Shown: in pieces, positions 13,311-49,603 of the stretch | Position numbering within the stretch: the stretch's first letter is position 1 | Layout: the number at the start of each line of letters is the position of its first letter | Source: [Actinobacillus] rossii | Lineage (GTDB): Bacteria; Pseudomonadota; Gammaproteobacteria; Enterobacterales; Pasteurellaceae | DNA length: 64,000 nucleotides | Assembly: GCA_900444965.1 (NCBI GenBank) | Contig: UFRQ01000003.1 | Coordinates: 1,798,001 to 1,862,000, forward strand | Direction of reading: 5' to 3' | The notes under the pieces: generated by a model | What the model was told of the DNA's origin: nothing | The model's database searches: none | Seen by the model: the letters and a program-made list of their open reading frames with translations, nothing else | Made by a program: the position numbers and the translations under genes

Positions 13311-13649
13311 TTTAAATAATAAGATATTGATTTTTATACAAAATTATCTTTGTTGTTTTACTATTGGTTACTGTGACGGTTACTAAAATCTAAAATCAAT
13401 TTAGTAGGGGAGTGATAACAATATTATTTTAACCCATCCGCCAAAAAATAAAAAATTCTGCAAAAAAAAACTTTTTTAAAAGTTGTCTCACTCCCTCACT
13501 TTATCCCTTTTTTTAGTGTAACTCTTTGATTTCAAAAGATAAAATTGAAGTGTGATATTTTTAAGGAAGTGGGAAACTTTCCCACTTTTTTCACTCTTTG
13601 AGTGAATTTTAATCAAAAATAAAGCCTAGCATATTAGCTAGGCTTGTTT
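13311..13649. other. Gene-free left end of the integrated element
   Basis: No open frame of note. AT-rich, with A and T runs, a close GGTTACT direct repeat near 13373-13392 and several hairpins: AAGTGGGAAA/TTTCCCACTT at 13567-13587 followed by a T run (plus-strand terminator), TCACTC/GAGTGA at about 13591-13605, and the terminator at 13619-13653. Such a region in a P4-like element could hold the replication origin, but no iterons are evident. Confidence 0.5.
13567..13592 (+). terminator. Terminator in the left end of the element
   Basis: 10-bp stem AAGTGGGAAA/TTTCCCACTT with a one-base gap, followed by TTTT. It would block plus-strand transcription entering the element from glnE. Confidence 0.6.
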
Positions 13650-40185: not shown

Positions 40186-43100
40186 TTAACTCGTCAATTC
40201 ATCCGCAATCACTTCCGCTTGTTCCAACACAAATTGAATAGCCTCATCACATTTATCCGGTGGATATTTGAATAATCTTAATGTTACACGCACCAAGTTT
40301 CTCATTTTGGCACGCACTGCTTCTTTGTATTGCCAGTCAATGGTGGCGGATTTACGCAGTTTATCCGTAATCGCTTTTGCTAAGTTTTTCAAGGCTTCAT
40401 CGCCCAATTCTCGCACCGCACTTTCATTACGGGCAAGGGCATCGTAAAAGGCAATTTCTGCTGGCGATAAACCCAATTTCTCCCCACGTTGCAAGCGTTC
40501 GGTAAATTCCTTGCTCATATTCAGCAACTCTTCCAACACTTGCATAATGGTGAGATTTTGGTTGTGGTATTTGTTTAACGCCTCTTTCAAACGCTCGGCA
40601 AAATCTTTTTGCACCGCCAAATTGCCTGTTCCTTTTTCATTGATTTGGCTACGCAAATAACGCTCCACCGCCAACAGCCAAAGCTCTTTGGTTTGACTGT
40701 TTTTGATTTTCTCTAAAAACTCTTCCGACAAAATATTAATATTCGGCTGTTCACGGTTGAGCAAATCAAACAGGTTAATCACACCGCTTGCGTCCACCGC
40801 TTTATTTAATAATGCCACCAACTGCAACTGACGTTCTTCGCTTGAAGCGGTGGAATTTGGCTCACGTTTTGCCAAAATCGCTCGCACCGCATCATAAAAG
40901 GCAAGCTCTTTTTGGTACTGCTGAACATCGCCGTCTGCACCGCATAAGCTAAAGCCTTTTTTCGCCAAACGCACCGCTTTTAAAAACGCATTACGTCTTG
41001 GGGTTTTCTCGGTTTTATCCGCAACTGCTTGATGATCTAAGGCGAGAATATGGTTCGCTCCCAACACTACTTGCTTGAACAACGCCAGTTCATCTTCAAT
41101 TTTCAAGGCATCAAACAGCTTAAACGGCTGATCGTTCACAGGTGTAGCAAACTGCCCACGCACAACATCAATATACTCCAACATCTTCGCCTTAATTTCG
41201 GCGATATTGTGGGTCATCTGCCCTTTGCCGTGCGAGTGAGTATATTGTTCTGTCGCTTCCCGAAGTTCGCTGGTTAGTCCCACATAATCCACAATCAAAC
41301 CGCCATTATCACGGCTTTTATTGCGGAACACACGGTTTACCCGTGCAATCGCCTGCATTAAATTATGCCCTTTCATCGGCTTATCAATGTACATCGTATT
41401 GCAACAAGGGGCATCAAAACCCGTTAGCCACATATCACGCACAATCACAATTTTCAGCGGATCGTCAGGATCTTTAAAACAGCATTCCAACAGCTTTTTA
41501 CCTTGCGAAGAATAGATATGTTTTTGAATGTCCGCAGGATCGCTCGCCGACCCCGTCATCACAATCTTAATCGCCCCTTCATTCACATCATCGCTATGCC
41601 ACTCTGGACGAAGTGCGGTGATTTTTTCGTACAATTTCACACAAATCTGACGGCTCATCGCCACCACCATAGCCTTGCCGTCAATTAAAGCAGTGCGTTG
41701 TTCAAAATGTTTGACAAAATCTTCTGCCAAACGGCTCAAACGCCCCTCTGTTCCCATTAATTTTTCACGCAAACGGAAGTTGTAGCTACTTTCATCATCT
41801 TCATCAATTAGCATTTGGGCTTCTTGCACCACATTATCAAACTCGGCACTCTGTACAATCGGAATTTGCCGTGCTTCATAAATAATCGGCACTGTCGCCC
41901 CATCTTCCACCGCATCGGTAATATCGTAAATCGACACATATTTACCGAACACTTCCTGCGTATCTTTATCTTCAAGACTAATCGGCGTGCCGGTAAAACC
42001 GATAAAAGACGCATTTGGCAAAGCATCACGCAAATGTTTTGCATAGCCGACACGGTATGTCCCTGTGCAGTTTTTATCGTTCAGTTTCACACTTTGGCTA
42101 AAACCATATTGCGAACGGTGAGCCTCATCGCTGATCACAATAATATTGTGTCGCTCGTTTAACACAGGGTGAGCCTGCTCGCCCTCTTGCAAACCGAATT
42201 TCTGAATAGTGGTAAAAATCACACCGCCTGTTTCACGCTTGGCAAGTTCTTCACGCAACGCCTCCCTGCCGTCTGCCTGCACAGGTTGCTGACGAATTAA
42301 CGCCTGACCGCCTGAAAAGGTGGCATAAAGCTGACCGTCCAAATCATTGCGGTCGGTGACTACCACAATGGTCGGGTTGCGTAGCTCCGCCTGCGACAAC
42401 AATTTACCCGCATAAAACAACATCGACAACGACTTGCCCGAACCTTGTGTATGCCACATCACCCCGATTTTGCCATTGCCCTGCTCGCTCGCCGCCCACA
42501 GCGTACAATCCACCGCTTCATTCACACCGTAGAATTGATGATAAGCGGCAATTTTCTTCACCAAACGACCGCTTGAGGTTTGCTCAAATACAATAAAATT
42601 CTGGATATAATCCAACAAACTCGCAGGGTTAAGCAAGCCACTCACCAAGCCTTCCAACTCGTGTTCAAACGAAATCCGTTGCTTGTTCTTCTCGTCCACC
42701 ACACGCCAAGGGGTAAACCGCTCCAAATCCGCCGTGAGCGAACCAACCTTCGCCAAAATACCATCGCTGATCACAAGGGCTTGGTTATACACAAACAGAT
42801 CGCCGATTTCCTGCTTATACGTCTGCAACTGATTAAACGCCTGTGGCAAATCCGCATTCTCTTTCAAGGGATTTTTCAGCTCCAACACCACCACAGGCAA
42901 GCCATTGATATAACAAATCACATCAGGACGGCGATTGCCCTTCCGCCCCAAAATCGTCAGCTGGTTCACCACATCAAAACGGTTTAGGCTTGGCTGTTGA
43001 AAATCAATCAAACGGGCAAATTCCACATTTTGCTCATCATTTTCCCGATACTCCACCCGAACGCCCTCACGCAAGTAGCGATAGGCTTGCTGATTACGCT

Positions 43101-43347
43101 CCGTTAAATCCGTAATATCCGTTTTGCACACCAACGCCACCACTTCGTCCACAGAGGCAGACGGCAACTGCGGATTTAACCGCTCCACCGTCTCACGCAA
43201 CACCGAACGAAACACCACCTCGTCCGTCCGCAACCGCCAAGGATTTTCCCCATCGGCATTGATGGTCGAACCGTGCGTATAATCCCAACCCAATTCCTGC
43301 AAAAATCGCAAACAGGCTTGTTCAATGGTGTTTTCGTTGATGAGCAT
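40186..43347 (-). CDS. hsdR: Type I restriction enzyme, R subunit
   Basis: 1053 residues from the ATG at 43347 ([16 protein letters not shown]), which has AAGGA 7 nt upstream; in-frame starts further up are less likely. N-terminal nuclease: [21 protein letters not shown] (D...E-x-K). SF2 motor: Walker A in [15 protein letters not shown] box [19 protein letters not shown] and motif [12 protein letters not shown]. The C-terminal part is helical and assembles with HsdM/HsdS. It cleaves DNA after translocation. It is separated from hsdMS by about 3 kb holding an IS copy, a RAYT remnant and a pseudogene. Confidence 0.93.
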
Positions 43348-43369
43348 TGTTTTTTCCTTTTTCATTTTA

Positions 43370-43393
43370 TTTTTTCGACACAGATCGAAAAAA
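43370..43393 (-). promoter_or_regulatory. Palindrome just upstream of hsdR
   Basis: TTTTTTCGA and TCGAAAAAA flank a 6-nt centre (CACAGA), 23 bp before the hsdR start. It may be an operator or an mRNA hairpin; nothing further is shown. Confidence 0.35.
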
Positions 43394-43470
43394 TGATTTT
43401 TGATGGTTGATGGAATGTGTTTGGTTTCATCAAAATTTGTTCCAATTTTCGTTGAATTAAATTCGTTGGC

Positions 43471-43547
43471 GGACACACGCAGTGTGTCCCTACCAAATTA
43501 AAATCCCAATAAAATCAACCCCGTAGGGACACACTGCGTGTGTCCGT
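43471..43547. repeat. Pair of inverted REP-like palindromes
   Basis: Two perfect 24-bp inverted copies at 43471-43494 and 43524-43547, separated by 29 bp. Each contains the palindrome ACACACGCAGTGTGT and a GTAGGG/CCCTAC tail. They precede a RAYT gene by 14 bp, the usual layout of REP elements mobilised by such transposases. Confidence 0.85.
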
Positions 43548-43561
43548 TTTAGGAGATACTG

Positions 43562-43852
43562 ATGAATTATCCAAATCGCAAATCTGTCCGTGTAAAATGG
43601 GATACCTATCAAAATGGCTGTTATTTTGTAACCGTTTGCACCCAAAATAAAATTCATTATTTTGGCGAAATTCAAAATCAAACAATACAATTAACAACAT
43701 TAGGTAAACAATTACAAAATATCATTCAAGACACAATAAATTTAAGACAAAATCAATTTATCGAAATACCTATTTTTACCGTAATGCCAAACCATTTTCA
43801 TTTAATCATCACCATAAACAGTGATACAGACAAACATCAACATTATTTGTAG
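43562..43852 (+). pseudogene. REP-associated tyrosine transposase, truncated by IS copy 3
   Basis: 95 native residues: MNYPNRKSVRVKWDTYQNGCYFVTVCTQNKIHYFGEI...MPNHFHLIITI. The HUH motif is present (NHFHL), the N-terminal W-x-x-G-x-YFVTVCT block is typical of Y1/RAYT proteins. The frame hits the IS at 43848 and stops at 43852, so the C-terminal half with the catalytic tyrosine is lost. It is flanked by its own REP-like palindromes. Confidence 0.88.
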
Positions 43853-45048
43853 AAGATCAAACCTAATCTGACAGTCCCCGTTTAGAATTACCGTGTCTGT
43901 CAGATTAATTTGAGCTTAAATTCTTTTCTGCCCAAATCCCTTTTCCATCAAGTAATGTTGCCATCGGTGTTCTGCCACAGCACATTTTTCCTTGATGTGT
44001 TCGATGGTGATTATAATACATTAACCACTCATCTAAATCAGCTTGTAATGTCGCTAAATCCGTATATATTTTCTTCCTAAATGCGACTTGGTAAAATTCT
44101 TGTAAGATAGTCTTATGAAAACGTTCACAGATACCATTCGTCTGTGGATGCTTCACTTTCGTTTTAGTATGCTCTATGTCATTTATCGCTAAATAAAGCT
44201 CATAATCGTGATTTTCCACTTTGCCACAATATTCACTACCACGGTCGGTGAGAATACGCAACATCGGTAATCCTTGGGCTTCAAAGAACGGCAGGACTTT
44301 ATCATTGAGCATATCTGCAGCGGCAATTGCGGTTTTCATTGTGTAGAGCTTTGCAAAAGCAACCTTACTATAAGTATCAACAAATGTTTGCTGATAAATG
44401 CGTCCAACACCTTTTAAATTACCTACATAAAAGGTATCTTGTGAACCTAAATAGCCCGGATGAGCGGTTTCAATTTCTCCACTCGATATATCATCCTCTT
44501 TCTTACGTTCCAAGGCTTGGACTTGACTTTCATTTAGAATAATGCCTTTCTCAGCTACTTCTTTCTCTAGTGCATTTAAACGCTGTTTAAAGTTAGCAAG
44601 ATTATGACGTAGCCAAATGGAACGAACACCACCAGCTGAAACAAACACACCTTGCTTGCGAAGTTCGTTACTCACTCGAACTTGTCCGTAAGCTGGAAAA
44701 TCTAGAGCAAATTTTACAACAGCTTGCTCAATGTGCTCGTCTACTCGATTTTTGATATTCGGTACCCGACGAGTTTGATTAAGTAATGCTTCAACACCGC
44801 CTTGCTCTACGGCTTGTTGATAGCGATAGAATGTATCTCGGCTCATCCCCATCGCTTTGCAAGCTTGAGAAATGTTTCCAAGTTCTTCTGCTAAATTGAG
44901 TAAACCGGTTTTGTGTTTAATGAGCGGATTGTTAGAATAAAACATGAGAGTTTCCTTTTTTGTTTAGATTGAATTTTAGACACTCATATTCTAAACGGGA
45001 AACTCTCATTTTTATAATGATTTGTCAGATCAAGTCTGATCTTCTACA
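43848..45048 (-). mobile_element. IS481-family insertion sequence, copy 3
   Basis: 1201 bp, same ends as the other copies. Flanking heptamers are CATTATT (left) and CTTCAAA (right), so there is no target duplication. It truncates the RAYT gene on one side and ends inside or at the end of a small hypothetical gene on the other, which suggests that DNA between them has been lost. Confidence 0.93.
43905..44945 (-). CDS. IS481-family transposase, copy 3
   Basis: 346 residues, intact HTH and DDE core. One residue different from copy 1 and three from copy 2. Start codon in the same hairpin arrangement as in copy 2. Confidence 0.95.
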   Translation of the reverse strand: MFYSNNPLIKHKTGLLNLAEELGNISQACKAMGMSRDTFYRYQQAVEQGGVEALLNQTRRVPNIKNRVDEHIEQAVVKFALDFPAYGQVRVSNELRKQGVFVSAGGVRSIWLRHNLANFKQRLNALEKEVAEKGIILNESQVQALERKKEDDISSGEIETAHPGYLGSQDTFYVGNLKGVGRIYQQTFVDTYSKVAFAKLYTMKTAIAAADMLNDKVLPFFEAQGLPMLRILTDRGSEYCGKVENHDYELYLAINDIEHTKTKVKHPQTNGICERFHKTILQEFYQVAFRKKIYTDLATLQADLDEWLMYYNHHRTHQGKMCCGRTPMATLLDGKGIWAEKNLSSN

Positions 45049-45567: not shown

Positions 45568-46536
45568 TTATTTTTTCAATAATTTATCGAACAACATACT
45601 TACAATATTATTTGTTGTTTTTTCATCAATAAATTCTTTATCAGGCTTATCCAACACGCTTGCTGGATTTTTACCTAATTCTCTGATTGTTTCTTCAAAT
45701 AACATTATATTAAGCATTTGCTTCTTCTCTTTAACTGTTTCAGGCATTTTATCAATCTGCTCTTGGAAATTGATAAATGAACTTGCTAATACTTCTTTAT
45801 GTCTATATTCCTGCGAAAGTCTAAAATTTTCCTTTCTTAATCTAAATAAAAAGGCTAATAAAATACCGAACAACATTAAAATAGAAAATCTTTTTAAATA
45901 AAAGAAAACCAACTTATAACTTTCTAGATTATCGCCAATATCACTTTCTGTAACTTTAACAATAAAGAAAAGTAAAATAAAAATAATTATTAAAACAAGA
46001 AAATTATTTAATAATTCGAACTTACTTTTCTCATCTCTAAATTTTTCAGATAGAGAATTAATAACTTCCAAATTCCTTGCTTCCTTAATCTGTTCAGATA
46101 CAGACGCAATATCCTTTTGATAATCAGAGATAACATTAAGAAACAATGGAATAAAATACTCCCTAACATTCGAATGTAAACTCTCAGCGTCAAGAAGCAA
46201 TTCAGCTAGTTTTTCTTTATCATCACAAAGAAAAACAGTTGCTTCATCTGTATTTGTCTGTTTTGAATACGATATAACTTTCTTTTGTAGCTTTTCTATT
46301 ACATCATCAAAAAGAGCACATTCTTTATGATTGATATGTATTTTATTCTTAGCCGCTACTGAAATAATATTATTGCATTGAGAAAGAATATTGCTTAAAT
46401 TTTGACATTCCTTTATTAATCTTTTAGGATCTAAATACTCACCACCATTAGCTTCAACATATTCTATGCGATCAAATATCACATCGAAATAACGATAATA
46501 GTAGTCTTCCCACTTTTTATAAAATACATCACTCAT
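45568..46536 (-). CDS. Unrecognised two-transmembrane coiled-coil protein coupled to hsdS
   Basis: 322 residues from the ATG at 46536, which overlaps the hsdS stop by 8 nt. The N-terminal half (about residues 1-175) is helical, with long charged stretches such as KECQNLSNILSQCNN and EKLQKKVISYSKQ. Two transmembrane segments follow: LLNNFLVLIIIFILLFFIV (about 180-200) and FSILMLFGILLAFLF (about 220-236), then a cytoplasmic helical tail (KENFRLSQEYRHKEVLASSFINFQEQIDKMPETVKEKKQMLNIML). Strongly AT-rich against its neighbours. I do not recognise the family. Its position in the operon points to a defence-linked or RM-linked role. Confidence 0.75.
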   Translation of the reverse strand: MSDVFYKKWEDYYYRYFDVIFDRIEYVEANGGEYLDPKRLIKECQNLSNILSQCNNIISVAAKNKIHINHKECALFDDVIEKLQKKVISYSKQTNTDEATVFLCDDKEKLAELLLDAESLHSNVREYFIPLFLNVISDYQKDIASVSEQIKEARNLEVINSLSEKFRDEKSKFELLNNFLVLIIIFILLFFIVKVTESDIGDNLESYKLVFFYLKRFSILMLFGILLAFLFRLRKENFRLSQEYRHKEVLASSFINFQEQIDKMPETVKEKKQMLNIMLFEETIRELGKNPASVLDKPDKEFIDEKTTNNIVSMLFDKLLKK

Positions 46537-47821
46537 TACTAATATCCCCACTCAACAATTTAGGTAATAATTCATCTCTTATTTCGCTCAAAATTCGATT
46601 TTCTTCTAAAATTTTGTCCACTAGTACACACATATTTGCTACCTTTTCAGAAAAATAATTGCATAGTTTCAAATTATCAGGAATTATAACTTCCTTAACT
46701 ATAAATTCCATCCAATGCCGTCTATATTCCTGAAATTCTTGTTTATCTTTAACTGCATAATAAACCCAGTATGTTGGTAGTTTTTTTCCTTTTAAAGCAA
46801 TCACATTTTGATAAATAGAAAATGGTTTTGTGGATAATTTTGTTATACAAGTATGATCACCAAAAATAAACATAGGCTCATCAAGGCTAGCATTAAAAGC
46901 AGGTTCATCGCAATATCCCATTAAGATTTTAGCACCTTGTTCAAAAACAGGAATTTGACCTTCATCCGTTACATCTTCTTTCTTTAATTTTTGCTTGCTC
47001 TTTAATCGCTCAACGATATTTTCAACCTTTTGGATCTCCCACCACCTCGGCATTCCCTCTTCATCAAACCCACTCGGAAATGCCTCTGCGATTTCCCATA
47101 GTTGTTGGTATTGTTCGGGATTTGCCGTCTGCAAGCGGTGTAATTCTTGCGTGTTTTTACCACTGATCACTGCCATTGCCGCTTGGGTGGCTTGCTCCAA
47201 GGTTTGTCCGCTTGCCAGTGCGTTGGCTTTGGCGTGAACGGGGTCAAAATCAATAAACCAGCTTTTAAAAATCGTTTGGGCGATTTGTTCTAAGGTTTGG
47301 TTAATTTGGGTGTTGAGTTCGATTTTTTTATCTAATACAAAGACATTATCAACAATACTTTGTTGAATATCTTTACTAGGTATTTTTAATTCATAATGTG
47401 AAATTGAATCAAATGTAATTTGTGGAAATGTTCCAGAACGTGATTCTGCAATTACTTTAAAATACTCTGTTGCTTCATTAGAAATTAACAATAAAAAAAG
47501 AAATTCGGGTAATATAACTTCTTGATTTGATTCAATGACCATAAATTTTGTCGATACGACATAATCATCTACGCTATCTCCAACTAACAAATATCGCCCA
47601 TTTCCTGGTCTAATTTCACTATATAGAATATCGCCTTTTTGTATTGCCTTTTTAGCCTGACCTGGCAATCCATCCGCTATACTATAATTTTTATGTAAAA
47701 ACTGATTATTTAACACATCTCCTGTATTTATAAAAATTACATTAGAATGTTTACTAAAATCAAATCTTCTACTCGCATTTTTAGCGACCTCTACCAACTT
47801 ATACTCTTTCCAACTACTCAT
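46529..47821 (-). CDS. hsdS: Type I restriction-modification specificity subunit
   Basis: 430 residues with two target-recognition domains: about 1-165 (MSSWKEYKLVEVAKNAS..., IRPGNGRYLLVG) and about 255-400 (WWEIQKVENIVERL..., FGDHTCITKLSTKPF), each followed by a conserved helical spacer (NTQINQTLEQIAQTIFKSWFIDFDPVHAKANA and LEENRILSEIRDELLPKLLSG). It sets the bipartite DNA site for both methylation and cleavage. It overlaps hsdM by 8 nt and orf322 by 8 nt. The recognition domains are AT-rich compared with hsdM. Confidence 0.93.
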   Translation of the reverse strand: MSSWKEYKLVEVAKNASRRFDFSKHSNVIFINTGDVLNNQFLHKNYSIADGLPGQAKKAIQKGDILYSEIRPGNGRYLLVGDSVDDYVVSTKFMVIESNQEVILPEFLFLLLISNEATEYFKVIAESRSGTFPQITFDSISHYELKIPSKDIQQSIVDNVFVLDKKIELNTQINQTLEQIAQTIFKSWFIDFDPVHAKANALASGQTLEQATQAAMAVISGKNTQELHRLQTANPEQYQQLWEIAEAFPSGFDEEGMPRWWEIQKVENIVERLKSKQKLKKEDVTDEGQIPVFEQGAKILMGYCDEPAFNASLDEPMFIFGDHTCITKLSTKPFSIYQNVIALKGKKLPTYWVYYAVKDKQEFQEYRRHWMEFIVKEVIIPDNLKLCNYFSEKVANMCVLVDKILEENRILSEIRDELLPKLLSGDISNE

Positions 47822-49524
47822 ACCCCAACCCTCCCAAATTCGCTTTAATCTTGGCTTCTAATTCTGCACTTTGCTTAAATTGTTGTTGTAAAAGCGCGGT
47901 CAGTTGTTGCATTTTTTCTACAAATGGCACACCGTCATCTTCTTGTTCGGCAGCACCGACATAACGCCCAGGGGTAAGGACGAAGTCGTTTTGGGCGATT
48001 TCGTCAAGGCTTGCGGTGTAGCAGAATGCAGGGATATTTTGGTAGTCGGCGGATTGTTGCCAGCTGTGGTAGGTGTCGGCGACTTTGGCGATGTCGTCTG
48101 CGGTGAAGTCGCGTAAGACACGGTCTTTCATATAGCCGAGTTGTCGTGCGTCAATAAACAGCACTTCGCCTTTGCGTGCTTTGTTTTTGTTCAAAATCCA
48201 GATACAGGCTGGAATTTGGGTGTTGGTAAAGAGTTGGTTTGGTAGGGCGATCATCGCTTCCACAAGGTCGGCTTTGAGAATATTTTTGCGAATTTCGCCT
48301 TCGTTGTTGGTGTTCGATGACATTGAGCCGTTGGCAAGCAACAACGCCATTCGTCCGTTTGGCGAAAGGTGATAAATCATATGTTGTAGCCACGCAAAGT
48401 TGGCGTTGCCTTCGGGCGGTATGCCATATTGCCAGCGTGGGTCTTGGACAAGGCTTTCGTTCCACCAGTCTTTCATATTAAAGGGTGGGTTTGCCATCAC
48501 AAAATCCATTTTTTTATCACGGTGTTGCGGATTGCTGAAGGTGTCGGCGTTGCCTTTGCCGAAGTCAAATTCAATGCCACGAATTGCCATATTCATTGCG
48601 GCAAGTTTCCAAGTGGTTGGGTTGAACTCTTGCCCGAAAATGCTCACTTCGCTGACGTTGCCTTGATGTTCGCGGATAAAACGTTCTGTTTGCACAAAAA
48701 AGCCACCCGACCCCATTGCTGGGTCGTAAATGCGTCCTTTGTAGGGTTCGAGCATTTCGATAATCAGGGTAACAATGGATTTTGGTGTGAAATATTGACC
48801 GCCCTTTTTGCCTTCCGCAAGGGCGAATTGCCCGAGAAAATACTCATAAACGTGACCGAGAATATCTTTTGCTGCCAAGGAAATCGGCTTGCCGTCAAGG
48901 GTTGGACAGGTGAAGTTGGTGTCGGAAAAGAGATCGATTAAGCCTAATAAAATGCTTTCATCAACTTTATAAGGGCTGATGCGTTGAATGACGTTTTTGA
49001 GTTTAGGGTTGTCTTGTTCGATAGCATCAAAAGCGTCATCAATCAAGTTGGCAATGCCTTTAAAGGTTTTCTCGCCCCAGATTTTGTCGCCAATGTTAGC
49101 ACGAGCCACGACTTTGATTTCGTCCCAACGAGCTTGTTGCGGCACCCAGAATACGTTGTCTTGGGCGTAGTTGTCTCGTTCTTCCAGTTCGGCATTGAGA
49201 ATATCGGCAAGTTCGCTTTCGCTGTAAGCGGTCGGGTCGAGATAAAAATCGGACGTTGGATCGGTGTAGCGTTGTTTGATGATGTCTTGTTGTGCCGAGA
49301 AGCTGTCGGAAACGTATTTTAAGAAGATTAAACCGAGAACGATGTGTTTATAGTTGGCAGCGTCAAGCTGTTGGCGAAGTTTATCGGCGGCTTTCCAAAG
49401 GTCGGCATCGAGTTTGTTGAGAAAGGCTTGTTGATCTGCTTGCTGAGTAGCTAAATTTTCAGCCAGATGTGCTGTGCTGTGCTGTGCTGTGCTGTGCTGT
49501 GCTGTGCTGTGCTGTGCTGTGCAT
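47814..49524 (-). CDS. hsdM: Type I modification methylase subunit, phase-variable, out of frame here
   Basis: N6-adenine methyltransferase subunit. SAM motif I YDPAMGSGGFFV and motif IV ANPPF are present; the N-terminal FLNKLDADLWKAADKLRQ is the usual HsdM start region. The only good start, the ATG at 49524 (GGAG upstream), opens straight into a GCACA repeat. With 11 copies the frame closes after 21 codons (TGA just after the repeat); with 9 or 12 copies it would read through to a protein of about 566-571 residues. In this sequence the gene is therefore OFF unless an internal start such as GTG at 49145 works. The long frame itself is intact. Confidence 0.9.
49468..49522 (-). repeat. Pentanucleotide repeat (GCACA)11 in hsdM
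   Basis: Eleven perfect tandem copies (55 bp) begin at the G of the hsdM ATG. Change by one unit shifts the frame; n divisible by 3 is ON. Phase variation by 5-bp repeats in hsdM is known from H. influenzae (a GACGA tract), but the motif here differs. Confidence 0.95.
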
Positions 49525-49603
49525 TATACTATATCTCCGTAGTAAATTTCAATAAAAAATCAATAATTTATGTTTTTTATAGCGTTATGAAACAATCATT
49601 TTC

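Follow-up and report, generated by a model that had tools for sequence, protein, structure and literature searches.

A GCACA repeat at the start of hsdM as the probable ON/OFF switch of a type I restriction-modification operon in [Actinobacillus] rossii, and a slot for such repeats across Pasteurellaceae

Is a type I methylase gene whose frame is closed in an assembly a broken gene, or a working gene caught in the OFF position of a switch? We asked this of hsdM in a stretch of 64,000 nucleotides (nt) of [Actinobacillus] rossii DNA (GCA_900444965.1, contig UFRQ01000003.1, positions 1,798,001 to 1,862,000), which we call the window and in whose positions all coordinates are given unless otherwise stated. 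An earlier note, made from the sequence alone, had read this gene as phase-variable and OFF. Our analysis indicates that this is very probably a type I operon in which slipped-strand changes in a GCACA tract turn translation of hsdM ON and OFF. The features in question are:

49522..49524, minus strand: start codon ATG of hsdM, read from the sequence
49468..49522, minus strand: simple sequence repeat (SSR) of eleven GCACA units, the proposed slippage switch (sequence and Tandem Repeats Finder)
49535..49538, minus strand: GGAG 10 nt ahead of the ATG, the likely ribosome-binding site of hsdM (sequence; a purine-rich site is kept in close relatives, by eye)
49524..49526, minus strand: TAA upstream of the repeat, overlapping the ATG, which closes the hsdM frame at n = 11 (sequence)
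49459..49461, minus strand: TGA ending the n = 11 frame after 21 codons (sequence)
47814..49466, minus strand: intact HsdM frame 3' of the repeat, 550 amino acids (aa), carrying the HsdM_N and N6_Mtase domains and not in frame with the ATG

The sequence and Tandem Repeats Finder (11.0 copies, 100% match, score 110) both bear out the earlier note's statement that the ATG opens into eleven perfect GCACA units; the second-best array in the 64 kb scored 57. The first G of the tract is the last base of the ATG, and TCTGGCTGA lies directly 3' of the tract on the minus strand. Reading of the frames likewise agreed with the note that the gene is OFF at n = 11, with a predicted product of 21 codons, and that the frame upstream is closed. 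The CTG of the conserved frame lies 5n + 3 bases from the A of the ATG and by arithmetic falls in frame only for n divisible by 3, as the note had also held. We looked for an in-frame start between 49524 and 49145, which the note had named as a finding that would count against it, and there was no ATG, GTG or TTG between the upstream TAA (49526-49524) and the conserved HsdM N terminus. The first listed start downstream of the tract is the GTG at 49145, which would cost 107 residues and cut 89 of the 145 residues of the HsdM_N match (19-163). With a tract in its coding frame whose unit length is not divisible by 3, this gene has the sequence pattern of a phase-variable hsdM of the SSR type.

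The GCACA tract was the sole array in the window (units of 4-9 nt, at least 3 copies, at least 15 bp), and hsdM is the one place in the window's own genome with the four-unit GCACA pattern. When the criterion was widened to units of 1-3 nt, arrays were found in none of the 208 other 306-nt tiles of the window; this tiling missed a run of nine A (13462-13470) which lies across a tile border. Other tiles of the relatives' loci gave 0 of 488. The window-wide scan together with these tile controls rules out a chance repeat.

We compared the tract between close orthologues and found that its copy number varies: 11 in Actinobacillus porcinus, 6 in A. minor NM305, 8 in an Actinobacillus metagenome-assembled genome (MAG), 11 in Ursidibacter arcticus and 18 in genome G010. 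These same-unit orthologues are 89-100% identical over the N-terminal stretch compared. The copies with n = 6 and n = 18 are open through HsdM (561 and 582 aa), and those with n = 8 and n = 11 stop, so that close relatives include both ON and OFF copies. From the arithmetic and from these natural copies with n = 6, 8, 11 and 18, repeat number is predicted to set whether full-length or truncated HsdM is made. The block ACGGAGATATAGTATAATGCACA is common to the window, A. porcinus, A. minor, the Actinobacillus MAG and G010, with slight differences in Ursidibacter and in genome G055. The latter is 97% identical downstream and is OFF, with GAACA as its unit instead of GCACA. Among database proteins, P0001, P0004 and P0005 open with MHSTAQHSTAHLAENL, which corresponds to n = 6 and the ON state. 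P0001 is an HsdM of [Actinobacillus] rossii itself, with 8 of 550 residues differing from the window copy, and n = 6 and n = 11 are probably found at one site in this one species. The ratio of nonsynonymous to synonymous substitution rates (dN/dS) between the window's hsdM and its six nearest relatives was 0.04-0.11, and the frame has therefore been under strong constraint although it is OFF here. Taken together, the comparison of orthologues favours a reversible switch over decay. Another database protein, P0009, begins at the CTG after the array and probably comes from locus L004, where n = 11, so that an OFF copy is filed as a complete protein. Glaesserella parasuis P0002 and P0003 look the same, judged on the protein alone.

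We then considered the same position across the family in a set of 140 genomes. Orthologues of hsdM (E ≤ 1e-150) were found in 67 genomes at 68 places; G100, whose two places are partial and lack the 5' end, was excluded from the array count, which leaves 66 orthologues. Arrays, defined as units of 3-9 nt with 3 copies or more and a minimum of 15 bp, lay upstream of HsdM residue 19 in 44 of the 66, covering 22 of 26 genera. A same-sized piece of the gene body had none in the same 66, and none were found in 15 orthologues from outside the family (16 loci, with L018 left out as it lacks the 5' end). Fifteen different units occupy this slot, namely 3 tetramers (6 arrays), 6 pentamers (25 arrays) and 6 heptamers (13 arrays). 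Unit lengths are thus solely 4, 5 and 7 nt, none of them divisible by 3, and no unit holds a stop codon in any frame. The circular unit GCACA is the commonest (15 of 44 arrays). The four-unit GCACA pattern was found in 47 of the 140 genomes and its reversed control in 2, G073 and G077, whose hsdM arrays are of exactly that reversed unit. One genome, G116, had 226 overlapping four-unit matches, which points to long or many GCACA arrays there.

On the HsdM tree, a quick tree of 64 rows (G063 and G127 left out) in which 17 of 61 inner branches are weak, the unit changed no fewer than 18 times, compared with a minimum of 14 for 15 units and a shuffled mean of 28.1. Taking the nearest ATG within 60 nt as the start, 3 of the 44 arrays were unreadable, and of the remainder 10 were ON and 31 OFF, compared to one third ON expected if phase were random (binomial p = 0.25). 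At least 500 codons are open downstream in 30 of the 31 OFF copies. A 4-mer resembling a Shine-Dalgarno (SD) sequence precedes the ATG in all 41 readable array-bearing orthologues and in 5.5% of shuffles, with the set of 4-mers picked after some sequences had already been seen. Seven orthologues which are array-less by our criterion (L073, L084, L086, L136, L146, L149 and L160) retain approximately one to two units at this position, with no start codon in frame upstream; this is how a shrunken array almost locked in the OFF state would look. These results suggest that switchability is the trait kept in the hsdM slot while the repeat unit turns over; orthologue copy numbers, dN/dS and the family-wide slot all support the phase-variation reading of the earlier note.

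The genes downstream of hsdM, in the order hsdM-hsdS-X-hsdR, and the element among them are:

46529..47821, minus strand: hsdS, specificity subunit, 430 aa, Methylase_S, overlapping the end of hsdM by 8 nt
45568..46551, minus strand: gene X, 327 aa, two hydrophobic stretches (by eye), overlapping hsdS
43848..45048, minus strand: element of the insertion sequence (IS) family IS481 between X and hsdR, transposase at 43905-44945, terminal inverted repeats
40186..43476, minus strand: hsdR, restriction and translocation subunit, up to 1096 aa, HSDR_N, SWI2_SNF2 and T1RH-like_C

The best match of the HsdM frame among solved type I M subunits is 3khk (E = 4.5e-203), and the frames of hsdS, X and hsdR are all open. 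Judged by its M, S and R genes standing together with their domains, this is a type I restriction-modification system, as the earlier note had described it, and the description needs amending by the extra gene X between hsdS and hsdR, which was not mentioned there. The IS481-family element has 26-nt terminal inverted repeats (43848-43873 and 45023-45048, 88% complementary) and may cut hsdR off from the operon transcript.

Four other explanations of the closed frame were weighed against a reversible translational switch. HsdM could be made at any repeat number, from the CTG at 49466 or the GTG at 49145, just as the annotation of P0009 has it for a locus with n = 11, and the CTG and its next codons are indeed kept in five of the closest relatives. 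However, the 20 nt before this CTG are repeat (CACAGCACAGCACAGCACAT) with no SD-like sequence, whereas each of the 41 array ATGs has one; the CTG codon is absent from G055, despite its 97% identity downstream; and the GTG would sacrifice the HsdM_N residues counted above. We regard such a constitutive start as quite unlikely. It is very improbable that the unit count is wrong and the strain ON. Repeat arrays are error-prone and a consensus sequence is all that the assembly offers, but 55 bp fit within one short read, n = 11 recurs in assemblies of other species (L001 and L004), and a miscount would alter the state called here and not the mechanism.

Two explanations remain. If hsdM were a dead remnant, frameshifted in a lineage which no longer uses it, a closed frame would be expected, and the IS481-family element that splits X from hsdR would fit an operon starting to break up. 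Against this stand 550 codons without a stop, the low dN/dS, open hsdR and hsdS, and the intact downstream frames of 30 of the 31 OFF relatives, which make decay extremely unlikely. The array could also act on transcription, since an 11-of-12 promoter match (TTGAAA-18-TATAAT, ending at 49523) overlaps the ATG and would start transcripts inside the repeat; 2 such sites were found where shuffles give 0.8. Close relatives keep the ribosome site but not the -35 half of this match (both by eye), the array sits behind different upstream sequence in other orthologues, and the avoidance of unit lengths that are multiples of three fits control of the frame, so a transcriptional role is hardly credible for this tract.

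In the translational switch that we propose, slipped-strand changes of copy number in the GCACA array would shift the hsdM frame. At n = 3k HsdM would be made, with M2S methylating and R2M2S restricting, roles stated in PMC5149525. When n is not a multiple of 3, including n = 11, methylation and restriction would both be lost, because HsdR acts solely within R2M2S and would have no complex to work in, and activity would return once n became a multiple of 3 again. The assembly would then have caught an OFF cell or an OFF majority. A likely use of such a switch is bet-hedging, in which some cells keep phage defence and others shed defence and its cost, and genome-wide methylation would change together with the defence state, perhaps altering the expression of many genes as in a phasevarion. 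The earlier note had gone further in saying that slippage switches the whole type I system. This stands as a prediction at the level of activity, and an OFF hsdM may or may not silence hsdS, X and hsdR, because hsdS has its own purine-rich site GGGAGG (seen in the sequence) and because in two pairs of Haemophilus influenzae isolates those with hsdM3 OFF had more hsdM3 and hsdS3 transcript (PMC6646836).

It should be noted that several points weigh against the proposed switch or the breadth that we give it. Switching in a living population is something that we infer from a consensus assembly. P0001, the n = 6 copy probably from the same site in this species, may be a recombinant allele because of its 8 differing residues, and no copy with n = 3k + 1 was met among the close orthologues. 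Our criterion leaves 22 of the 66 orthologues without an array. Five of the 31 OFF copies have a TTG in frame upstream of the array, and its use would bring the ON count to 15 of 41. In addition, with 15 units 14 of the 18 unit changes are unavoidable, and the count of at least 18 lies below the shuffled mean; units are clustered on the tree and are therefore inherited within clades as well as replaced.

An SSR-switched hsdM is established in H. influenzae (HI1287; hsdM3 / HindVIIP), where slippage truncates HsdM to 13, 16 or 24 residues and switching was measured via lysis by phage HP1c1 (PMC2651432, PMC6646836). Like the present gene, it encodes a type I M subunit and has a pentanucleotide array at the 5' end, but its unit is GACGA/CGAGA and not GCACA. 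H. influenzae proteins P0066, P0074 and P0089 are 73% identical to the window's HsdM. The earlier note was correct that GCACA differs from the H. influenzae GACGA tract, but GCACA is not unusual, given its 15 of 44 arrays in the slot and the CACAG repeat of a type III system in Pasteurella (Mannheimia) haemolytica, cited by title in PMC5149525 and PMC3874151. CACAG is a rotation of GCACA and that system likewise belongs to a methylase of the same family of bacteria, although, going by the title, its repeat lies in a type III mod gene and not in a type I gene. A REBASE survey (Atack et al. 2020, quoted in PMC7394358) gives SSRs in 2% of hsdM genes; the 44 of 66 in the window's orthologue group is far higher, by another criterion. 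Literature searches, which did not cover that survey and for hsdM went by title, gave no report of a GCACA-switched hsdM, and one paper on phase variation uses GCACA as a methylation motif. The available text on restriction-modification genes of Glaesserella parasuis (PMC6211672) names no GCACA repeat, and that on Histophilus somni (PMC3339403) mentions hsdM and SSRs but not together. This locus adds to the known class of SSR-switched hsdM genes. What may be less expected is a slot fixed in position which changes its unit, together with an exchangeable gene X behind the switching methylase.

We also examined gene X in 48 of the 66 operons, taking as X the first plus-strand open reading frame (ORF) of at least 90 aa behind hsdS. 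This is a permissive definition, with ORFs of just 102 and 114 aa in G027 and G115; no full hsdS was found in G061. Such an ORF was present in 47 of the 48; in the 48th, G010, hsdS is fused to a stretch which matches HEPN_AbiU2 (27.6 bits, cut-off 26.8). Of 46 cases that could be measured, X overlaps hsdS or starts no more than 3 nt from its end in 43, counted from the most upstream start, which may overstate overlaps. The 47 proteins form 17 clusters (BLASTP, E ≤ 1e-4), and a scan of one representative of each gave defence-like Pfam hits above the curated cut-off for six clusters (19 of the 47 proteins by membership): FRG, HEPN_AbiU2, SIR2_2 (twice), Abi_C and an OLD-like ATPase-TOPRIM. Representatives of the other eleven clusters had no Pfam hit above the curated cut-off. 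Among these eleven is the window's cluster, which may be loose, as it includes a member just 23% identical. The window's X itself matched no family at E ≤ 0.001 in Pfam, NCBIfam, PADLOC or PHROGs, and its alignment had no PDB sequence match at E ≤ 1.

X, hsdS and the M-R backbone move independently. Between G055 and G067, X is 99%, M 97% and S 39% identical, and between the window and A. porcinus M is 99% identical and X unrelated. X does not travel with hsdS, the mean HsdS identity being 0.32 both in 69 X-sharing pairs and in 966 non-sharing pairs. Outside the family, 4 of 12 loci had extra ORFs between hsdS and hsdR, 1 (L006) had none and 7 were unreadable. In E. coli ecoprrI it is prrC that lies between hsdS and hsdR. 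X is likewise embedded in an hsd operon between these two genes, but unlike in ecoprrI the methylase of the window's operon is phase-variable, and nothing marks X as a PrrC anticodon nuclease because it belongs to no Pfam or NCBIfam family. PrrC is a latent anticodon nuclease sequestered by a type I enzyme (PMC12707154, PMC3874165), and Campylobacter jejuni has rlo genes between hsdR and hsdS (PMC5183652). One could imagine a conserved M-R chassis with a freely exchanged S and an independently exchanged effector in slot X (FRG, AbiU2, SIR2, Abi_C or OLD-like, or without a known family as in the window), where the complex restrains or licenses X, slippage in hsdM toggles everything and the switch is kept while its unit is replaced. 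This fuller scheme is a tentative one, which we think unlikely as a whole.

Some further features of the locus and genome are worthy of note. A 24-nt perfect inverted-repeat pair at 43470-43546 overlaps the GTG of hsdR, and because this GTG lies in the inverted repeat the true hsdR start may be further down. The 19-nt core of this repeat has three matches in the genome, of which two are the pair itself, and cores resembling it precede hsdM in A. porcinus and G010 (by eye). ORFs matching the IS200-like transposase family Y1_Tnp are located in the interval from X to hsdR, over the Pfam cut-off in G049 and below it in A. minor, and a further match behind hsdS in G010 is below the cut-off; because of these ORFs, the repeat overlapping hsdR is suggested to be a repetitive extragenic palindromic (REP)-type element. 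Elsewhere in the window's own genome, another strong N6_Mtase match (L164, G000:C3:2219790-2220734) is an open frame of 851 aa, with no repeat array in the 3.9 kb examined around it, and this genome has no N6_N4_Mtase (type III mod-like) match over the cut-off. Outside the window, near 1.747 Mb of G000:C3, a 35-copy heptanucleotide TATATGC array (L167:2393-2637) ends approximately 213 nt upstream of an ORF which opens like a trimeric autotransporter adhesin (by eye); this arrangement recalls the promoter repeats of the H. influenzae hmw genes. No match came from the plasmid collection, and the phage collection yielded a single match of 4%.

With phase-variable type I methylases, chance decides which cells restrict phage and which methylome each cell has, and expression and phage-sensitivity data from one culture can therefore mislead. 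Our results also suggest that protein databases can hide OFF hsdM copies behind a CTG start. Were X linked to the complex, a single slippage would turn two layers of defence on or off at once, restriction with its methylation and an abortive-infection effector. Other repeats stand at this spot of hsdM in many relatives, which suggests that the switch itself has been retained, and that in many Pasteurellaceae the conserved trait is the switchability of hsdM and not a particular repeat.

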